Positions 34,607 through 64,000 of a DNA stretch of 64,000 nt are shown here, one piece after another. Under the pieces are notes generated by a model that saw nothing but the letters and a program-made list of their open reading frames with translations, was not told where the DNA came from and ran no database searches. Source of the stretch: Pseudomonas asiatica. Lineage in GTDB: Bacteria; Pseudomonadota; Gammaproteobacteria; Pseudomonadales; Pseudomonadaceae. Both the position numbers and the translations under genes were made by a program. The DNA lies in NCBI RefSeq assembly GCF_040214835.1, contig NZ_CP157874.1:58501-122500 (forward strand), in the 5' to 3' direction. The number at the start of each line of letters is the position of its first letter. The stretch's first letter is position 1.

Positions 34607-35200
<594 letters not shown>

Positions 35201-35202
35201 AG

Positions 35203-35673
35203 ATGGGCAGGAAGCGTTGGACATCCCTGGCTGCCGCCCTGTTACTGGGCGGCAGTGCGGCGGCGATGGCGGCCAATGACGGCCAGGTCCGGGTCGACCA
35301 GCTGCTCGGCTCGGACCCGGAGTACCGGGAAACCTGGCAGGACACGATTGAAGGCGAGGAACGTCTGCCTGATTGGGTGGTCAATCTGACCGGCAGTGCC
35401 CAGCAGCAGATGTCTGCCGTTACCGAAGACGGCGACAAGTACCTGGTCGGCCCATTGTGCGAACGCCAGGACAACTGCACCTACAAGCGCCTGATCGTGG
35501 CGTTCAGCTGGGACAAGGACGATGCCTACGGGATGCTCGTGGAGGTACCCGAAGGTTTGCCGAGCGACAAGTCGCCCACCCGTCACGCGCAGTACCGCTG
35601 GCTGGGTAAGCCGGACGACGGCATGAAGGCGATGCTGCAGGAGCAGCTCAAGCGTGACCCGAACTGGTACTGA
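35203..35673 (+). CDS. Ivy-family C-type lysozyme inhibitor
   Basis: A 156-residue periplasmic protein: signal peptide (about 1-23, ending AAAMA) and an Ivy domain. The diagnostic disulfide loop is CERQDNC in GPLCERQDNCTYKRLIV, followed by FSWDKDDAYGMLVEVP. Ivy proteins insert this loop into the active site of vertebrate lysozyme, and may also restrain the cell's own lytic transglycosylases. Position next to algB matches the second Ivy paralogue (PA5481) of P. aeruginosa. ATG at 35203 follows GAGGTTGAAG. Confidence 0.85.
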   Translation: MGRKRWTSLAAALLLGGSAAAMAANDGQVRVDQLLGSDPEYRETWQDTIEGEERLPDWVVNLTGSAQQQMSAVTEDGDKYLVGPLCERQDNCTYKRLIVAFSWDKDDAYGMLVEVPEGLPSDKSPTRHAQYRWLGKPDDGMKAMLQEQLKRDPNWY

Positions 35674-36418
35674 GCATTTGCACCCGGTACGGAGTAAAGG
35701 TCATGCACTGTCACGAAATAGAAGCTGAACCTTTCTATATTTCAGCCTTCTATGATGCGCCGCCCCGAGGAGGGGCTGCACATGACCAAGGGGCCGGGCT
35801 GTTCTGATTGTTGCAGGATCGGAGTGGCCTAGGGGTACAGGGAGTGCCTCCAGCAATGGGCCGGGTCAGGAAAGGCGGAATCGGAAGTTTCAGGTCGGCG
35901 GTGCCATAGGGGCACCTGACCAGACCTGACTTCCGAGGAGCCATGTAGGAAACGTCTCTTCCCTGCGCGATTTCCTCTTCGAGACACATTTTGTCTCGAC
36001 CGTACATCAATTTTTTTTCGATCAGCCTGGCGCTTGTTCAAGAGGCATTTCGGCCATTCGGATTGTCGAACAAGCCATCGCCCCTGTCCTTTTTACCCTG
36101 CCAAATCTGCCTAAATATGGCGGTTTGGTCTTGTTCGGGATTCCGAACGTTGTAAATCAAGCACTTGCGAACCTCCCGTTTTGGTCAGAAATGTTATGCA
36201 CAAACGGCATGGGGTATGCGCTTCCGGCATTAGATTTCCCCCTTTGCCATCGCAATAGTTGCCGCCTTTTTCGCCGGCCCGAGCGCCCTGTCGCTCGCCT
36301 GCGGTGTCCTTACATGAAGTCGCCGGACGGAAGCATCTGCTGCTCGTGACCTTGCCAACGGCTCTGTTACGCGCGTTTCCGTTGGGTGCCCATGACCACT
36401 AGAACAAAGGGTAAAGAC
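35674..36418. other. Long non-coding interval before gltP
   Basis: About 745 bases with no convincing protein gene on either strand. The first half (to 36018) is rich in stem-loops and is listed separately. The second half (36019-36418) is lower in G+C, with A/T-rich stretches such as TAAATATGG near 36110, and presumably holds the gltP promoter and leader; I could not pin down a -35/-10 pair. This is by far the longest non-coding gap apart from the rRNA leader. Confidence 0.8.
35718..36018 (+). ncRNA. Candidate structured RNA (five stem-loops), unknown family
   Basis: Read on the + strand: a 12-bp stem with a one-base bulge (35718-35729 with 35741-35753); GCCCC/GGGGC with loop GAGGA (35762-35776); a two-part stem CGGAAGT+CAGGTC (35882-35896) with GACCTG+ACTTCCG (35923-35935) enclosing GGTGCC/GGCACC (35900-35916); AGGAAACG with CGATTTCCT (35947-35976); and CGAGACA/TGTCTCG (35980-35998), then TTTTTTTT at 36011. 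Alternative pairings compete with these. Strand and ends are inferred; expression is not shown by sequence. Confidence 0.5.

Positions 36419-63500: not shown

Positions 63501-64000
<500 letters not shown>

Follow-up and report, generated by a model that had tools for sequence, protein, structure and literature searches.

The ivy-DE RNA of Pseudomonas extends beyond its Rfam model into flanking helices and accompanies the DUF1328-(ivy) unit

The window, by which we mean the whole 64,000-nt stretch of Pseudomonas asiatica DNA that was analysed, carries a gene for a 53-aa DUF1328 protein (PF07043-type; 35039..35200, + strand), placed by tblastn with the window protein. It is followed on the + strand by an ivy-like gene (35203..35673), which is part of an open reading frame, was also placed by tblastn, and takes its name from an earlier, sequence-only reading of this DNA and from the name of an Rfam family. 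Between the end of ivy at 35673 and gltP, the start of which is taken as 36419, lies an interval that holds a structured element on the + strand, with ivy directly upstream of it. The element begins with hairpin A, a stem of 12 pairs with one bulge (35718..35753) for which covariation is the evidence. Hairpin B (35755..35782), which has a GAGGA loop, abuts helix P1 of the Rfam-matched core (35783..35876), and the core comprises P1, P2 and P3, the last with an AGGGA loop. Hairpin C (35874..35942), a two-part stem, overlaps the final 3 nt of the Rfam match; as for B, the evidence comes from covariation and folding. A palindrome, TCGAGACA-CATTT-TGTCTCGA (35979..35999), assessed by pairing counts in the window's own clade, follows further downstream and is probably not part of the RNA element. 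At the far end of the window, a 16S rRNA gene begins at 63501-64000 and runs off the end.

A cmscan of the window identifies the core as RF02999 (ivy-DE), with a score of 98.5 bits against a gathering score of 41.4 (E 3.1e-18), and the match at 35783-35876 covers the full model (positions 1-93 of 93). This is the one RF02999 match in the window's genome. Within the interval, every other family stays under its gathering score; matches to potC and Vax2os1_2 were rejected because they fall far short. The family name implies a position downstream of ivy, which is where the core is found here. In P1, TGACC (35783-35787) pairs with GGTCA (35864-35868). Rfam types the family as Cis-reg and names it after ivy, but at the loci described below DUF1328 remains where ivy is absent. 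The Rfam model of 93 positions occupies the middle of the element and leaves helices A, B and C outside, while the span from B to C measures 188 nt in the window. The family is said to have been described by Weinberg and colleagues in 2017; a literature search on "ivy-DE" returned, by title, no publication on the RNA, and as far as these tools show, ivy-DE is an orphan RNA family whose function is unexplained.

The sequence-only reading had proposed a highly structured region of unrecognized family between ivy and gltP, and much of what it described is indeed there. Folds contain its bulged stem at 35718-35753, its GAGGA-loop stem (inside 35755-35782) and its two-part stem enclosing GGTGCC/GGCACC (inside 35874-35942), and the sequence contains GGTCAGG at 35864, CCTGACC at 35915, the repeated ACCTGAC and the GAGAC/GTCTC motifs. 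The stems it listed are present, but it overlooked that 35783-35876 forms a single ivy-DE domain, and the family that it could not name is given by cmscan. As it had itself held that a match to a known Rfam family would make the structure a described one, the core counts as described. The structure is real, then, but its core is already known as ivy-DE, and its flanking helices are absent from the Rfam model; what is new here, within the literature searched, is the extended architecture and the association with DUF1328.

Single-sequence folding cannot assign a strand to the element, because both strands of a 331-nt stretch fold nearly equally well: the + strand has a z of -2.78 (1 of 100 shuffles as low) and the reverse strand a z of -2.71 (2 of 100). 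Since both fold below their shuffles, strand and reality were tested by comparison. We clustered 163 flanked sequences and aligned them clade by clade with MAFFT, excluding one locus that contains N letters (L165). In five clusters, the paired cells of the + strand are far richer in G-U than in A-C (491:79, 333:64, 296:16, 119:22 and 58:9), and the corresponding counts on the - strand are about equal (139:146, 109:112, 73:73, 28:36 and 26:25). This asymmetry points to an RNA read from the + strand.

Covariation was tested in cluster 30 (34 sequences, the window's own), cluster 27 (41), cluster 26 (23) and cluster 22 (7), against simulated alignments that preserve the tree and the per-column change counts. 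In each of the four, the alifold energy lies under that of all 60 simulated alignments. The covariation score of hairpin A is reached by 0 of 200 simulations in cluster 30, 0 in cluster 27, 175 in cluster 26 and 4 in cluster 22; the corresponding counts are 0, 1, 0 and 18 for hairpin B and 0, 0, 3 and 57 for hairpin C. The signal is thus not significant everywhere, failing for A in cluster 26 and for B and C in cluster 22, but in clusters 30 and 27 all three helices covary beyond the tree-preserving null. Together with the G-U/A-C asymmetry, these covarying pairs bear out the proposal of a genuine, conserved + strand structured RNA. The number of pairs with a double change is a weaker measure, and alone it gives no clear excess over the null: of the 200 simulations for cluster 30, 79 attain the observed number for A, 23 for B and 97 for C, and for cluster 27 the figures are 27, 19 and 16. 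In cluster 26, an extra stem upstream of hairpin A, GGTTCCGT/ACGGGGCC (for example in L035), also scores 0 of 200, and because helices confined to one clade can score in this way, any one helix seen in just one clade calls for caution. Two alignments, A1 and A2, have 42 and 39 flanking pairs with 92.4% and 90.2% paired cells, and 15 and 21 of these pairs show a double change. When partners are slid, 30.8-43.0% of cells are paired, a control that favours the A1 and A2 structures because they were derived from those same alignments.

The hairpins next to the core were also folded without alignment. The set comprised 51 sequences, namely a representative of every one of 34 clusters and 17 further loci from a genus labelled g9; L165 and L183 were omitted (N letters or a short flank). 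The 75-nt stretch of hairpin C has z < -2 in 47 of the 51, with all four exceptions in g9, and hairpin B has z < -2 in 29; a control stretch 150 nt downstream does so in 6. Among the representatives, the layout of hairpin C (a short outer stem, an internal loop and a long inner stem) is kept although its letters differ, apart from exceptions such as L102, L140 and L149, in which the chosen fold lies elsewhere. The loop letters of hairpin B are not conserved. A natural control exists in the genome G030, where the core at locus L217 (871-918) matches the 93-position model over 48 nt with 30.2 bits. By eye, P3 is gone altogether and P2 in part, so that about half the positions of the core are missing, while the surrounding A, B, P1 and C look intact.

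The element is widespread. Of 398 genomes sampled from the genus, 309 have an RF02999 match above the cut-off. Across the family, 99 genomes from 19 genera were sampled; 46 of them have a match at E <= 0.001 and 42 have one above the cut-off, and 9 of the genera are represented. In g9, 24 of 25 genomes have RF02999. For gene context, we analysed 182 loci, one per genome, of which 164 came from the genus and family searches and 18 from g9; they are a sample made up of the best-scoring and selected places among the matches listed, weak and divergent matches included. Context was read by tblastn with five window proteins (algB, BON, DUF1328, ivy and gltP). The nearest upstream queried gene on the same strand is ivy at 148 of the 182 loci and DUF1328, with no ivy match, at 33; at the one other locus (L166), algB is the sole queried gene upstream. 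The core follows the ivy stop by a median of 79 nt (range 18-237). At the 33 loci with DUF1328 alone, it follows the DUF1328 stop by a median of 135 nt, and because this gap is only 14-296 nt, there is no room in it for ivy. The element is dispensable, however, since 26 of 35 surveyed genomes without an RF02999 match retain DUF1328 (12 of the 26 with ivy as well); the genus sample holds 89 genomes without a match, 69 of which lie outside this context survey. We conclude from these comparisons that the element accompanies the DUF1328-(ivy) unit where it is present, yet is dispensable.

The downstream side is less constant. A gltP gene follows on the same strand at 142 of the 182 loci and is absent from the examined flank, about 900 to 1500 nt long in most cases, at 40; where present, its match begins a median of 546 nt beyond the core. 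Inspection of 15 loci by eye showed a following gene that is transporter-like on the + strand (6), WrbA-like on the - strand (5), gltP-like (1), lipoprotein-like on the - strand (1), HlyD-like on the - strand (1) or unclear (1), so that 7 of the 15 lie on the opposite strand. The region before gltP has features of its own. A motif ACCGTAYATC (at most one mismatch), at 36000-36009 in the window, lies 84-666 nt after ivy-DE at 89 of the 182 loci, including 41 of 41 in cluster 27, and a near form, ACCGTACGTC, precedes gltP in L212 and L216, both of which lack the element; the motif is perhaps a gltP promoter or operator. Further downstream, but still upstream of gltP, an inverted repeat, TTCGGATTGTCGAACAAG / CTTGTTCGGGATTCCGAA (36057-36074 and 36130-36147), looks like a putative operator pair, and ATTCGGATTGTCGAACA recurs in relatives.

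The sequence-only reading had suggested a switch-like leader of gltP, that is, a riboswitch or attenuator in which GGTCAGG pairs alternatively with CCTGACC, and GAGAC with either of two GTCTC copies. Because P1 pairs TGACC with GGTCA, GGTCAGG is chiefly the 3' strand of the known P1 helix. A 6-nt complement of this strand occurs within the 110 nt downstream at 11 of the 182 loci against 10.8 expected from mononucleotide shuffles, and a 7-nt complement at 6 against 1.8. The 7-nt excess is local, residing among the window's relatives: in the cluster to which the window belongs (34 sequences), 4 have the 7-nt complement against 0.4 expected, and 6 have the 6-nt complement against 1.9. In the alignment, 56.9% of the cells of the alternative helix are paired and no double change is seen; sliding it by one column gives 57.4%. 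Of the 34 cluster-30 sequences, 29, the window's own included, have the loop motif; GAGAC can form at least 7 of 8 pairs with GTCTC at 35993 in 13 of these and has a 5-nt complement at 35954 in 4, with 1.5 expected. A conserved switch was rejected for both sets of pairings: neither set is conserved, and the alternative helix of GGTCAGG does not covary. A leader of gltP would fit the 142 loci at which gltP follows on the same strand, and it would also fit the genomes without RF02999: in 26 readable stretches from 27 such loci, at least 14 run, by eye, straight into the gene that lies beyond gltP in the window, so that element and gltP seem to have been lost together. The loci without gltP, the distance to it, and L212 and L216, which retain gltP with neither ivy nor element, speak against it. 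We find neither the conserved, mutually exclusive helices nor the constant downstream gene family of a riboswitch or attenuator, as the following genes vary and lie on both strands. A gltP leader, unlikely on this comparison of loci, is in our judgement the least probable of the readings considered here.

An independently transcribed, trans-acting sRNA that has its own promoter, starts at hairpin B and merely happens to follow ivy is a doubtful but more substantial alternative. A sequence GAACYY-N16-TCTAT, positioned such that transcription would start at hairpin B, precedes this hairpin in 27 of 34 sequences of cluster 30, 8 of 11 of cluster 28, 2 of 3 of cluster 29 and one g9 locus, at a nearly constant distance from the core (29 nt in 31 of 38). 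The form in the window's clade, GAACCT-N16-TCTAT, we take to be sigma-22-like. The same pattern is found in 0 of 41 sequences of cluster 27 and 0 of 23 of cluster 26, and it overlaps the arms of hairpin A. Counted with the N16 spacing across the window's genome, it is not enriched (3 occurrences against 3 for the reversed control), and GAACTT-N16-TCTRA occurs 0 times against 7 in the control. The promoter-like sequence of the window's clade would suggest an independent gene, but the genome counts do not support a promoter, and a sigma-22-like promoter within hairpin A, though kept in that clade, was rejected as no more frequent than the control.

RNAs reported from P. aeruginosa bear on the same alternative. 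The gltP gene of strain PAO1 is presumably PA5479, and the genome G495, which we take to be PA7, has gltP, the element, ivy and DUF1328 in the same order. In two studies, the PAO1 RNAs SPA0121 (6171700-6172000) and As246 (232 nt, 6171684-6171915) are classed as antisense to PA5480, with SPA0121 assigned to the - strand, included in a table of Northern-validated candidates and annotated MRE, for multiple read ends (PMC3349714, PMC4180829). The two RNAs resemble the element in that their target is numbered beside ivy (PA5481), and they are listed on the corresponding strand, which would favour a separate transcript. Anchoring on the PAO1 position of ErsA given in PMC7264166, and assuming no net indel, we expect the element near 6172129-6172286, which would put SPA0121 129 nt and As246 214 nt to its gltP side, between the expected element and gltP. 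On that assumption, the places do not coincide, and each RNA is at best a candidate for the element. An antisense ORF of 151 aa covers the element in G495, and one of 86 aa lies antisense to it in the window (35750-36010, - strand); such ORFs are probably spurious, but they may be the reason that RNAs of this region have been annotated as antisense. ErsA itself (Pseudomon-1, RF01719; 21736-21851 in the window, 144.3 bits) is, like the element, a structured RNA of this chromosome region, but its model does not match the element and, in contrast to hairpin C of the window, it ends in a T-run. A C-rich stretch of ErsA, CCCCCTCCCC, could be a candidate for pairing with short G-rich loops such as GGGAG.

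The GGA triplets near loops had also been taken to recall RsmA/RsmE targets. The consensus bound by these proteins is ANGGA in a hairpin loop, and RNAs that titrate them carry several GGA hairpins. The likeness holds for P3, the loop of which is CAGGGAG at 137 of 181 loci and contains GGA at 152. It does not hold for the remaining 29, the P3 loop has five nucleotides rather than six, and the GAGGA of hairpin B is not conserved (GGA in the middle 14 nt of this region at 98 of 182 loci), leaving one constant GGA hairpin instead of several conserved in hairpin loops. An RsmA/RsmE (CsrA)-titrating RNA therefore seems very unlikely on these comparisons, although this reading is not exclusive of the others and its probability overlaps with theirs. 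Unlikely too, if to a lesser degree, is that the element acts purely in cis, stabilising or terminating the 3' end of the DUF1328-ivy mRNA, and has no trans partner. Such a device would fit the place of the element behind the unit, as well as the great stability of hairpin C (a median of -36.1 kcal/mol across 179 loci). A T-run (at least 7 T in 12) follows hairpin C at 8 of 180 loci, which would suit termination in a few lineages; the window's copy lacks one, and hairpin C was rejected as a general intrinsic terminator. A plain stabiliser, moreover, would need no conserved letters in its core, and those of the element, P1 and the P3 loop included, are kept in 9 of 19 genera sampled.

We slightly favour a complete ivy-DE RNA that lies in the 3' UTR of the DUF1328-(ivy) mRNA and the core of which binds a partner, either attached to the message or released from it. 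Comparison across loci establishes, at the level of sequence, conservation, the + strand, helices A to C and association with the upstream genes. The probable placement in a 3' UTR is favoured in that ivy or DUF1328 precedes the element at 181 of 182 loci and the genes after it vary in kind and strand. That most copies of hairpin C are without a T-run and that the element is dispensable count against this reading, as do the promoter-like sequence of the window's clade and the clusters in which covariation is not significant. In the mechanism we propose, DUF1328, ivy where present, and the element would be transcribed together on the + strand, so that the 3' untranslated end of the message would carry hairpin A, hairpin B, the ivy-DE core and the long hairpin C in that order. 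Hairpin C would cap the 3' side of the RNA, followed in a few lineages by a T-run resembling an intrinsic terminator. The core, which is conserved and whose P3 hairpin has a G-rich loop, could then bind a partner RNA or protein, acting while attached to the mRNA or, after a presumed release, as a 3'-UTR-derived sRNA.

With regard to the family, we offer a reading that is tentative and that we hold at less than even confidence: instead of being an ivy element, ivy-DE may be a regulatory RNA that belongs to the DUF1328 unit and remains behind DUF1328 where ivy is absent. It would be a 3'-UTR RNA of approximately 190 nt made up of B, the core and C, working through the core and P3 either in trans or as an RNP, with hairpin A apparently an addition in clades of the window's genus. 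The unit is probably about twice the size of the Rfam model. If this reading is correct, a conserved RNA would be tied, in nine of nineteen sampled genera, to DUF1328, a small membrane protein of unknown role. The boundaries of the unit, its reading from the + strand, and an association with DUF1328 rather than with ivy or gltP provide a basis on which this orphan family can be tested.
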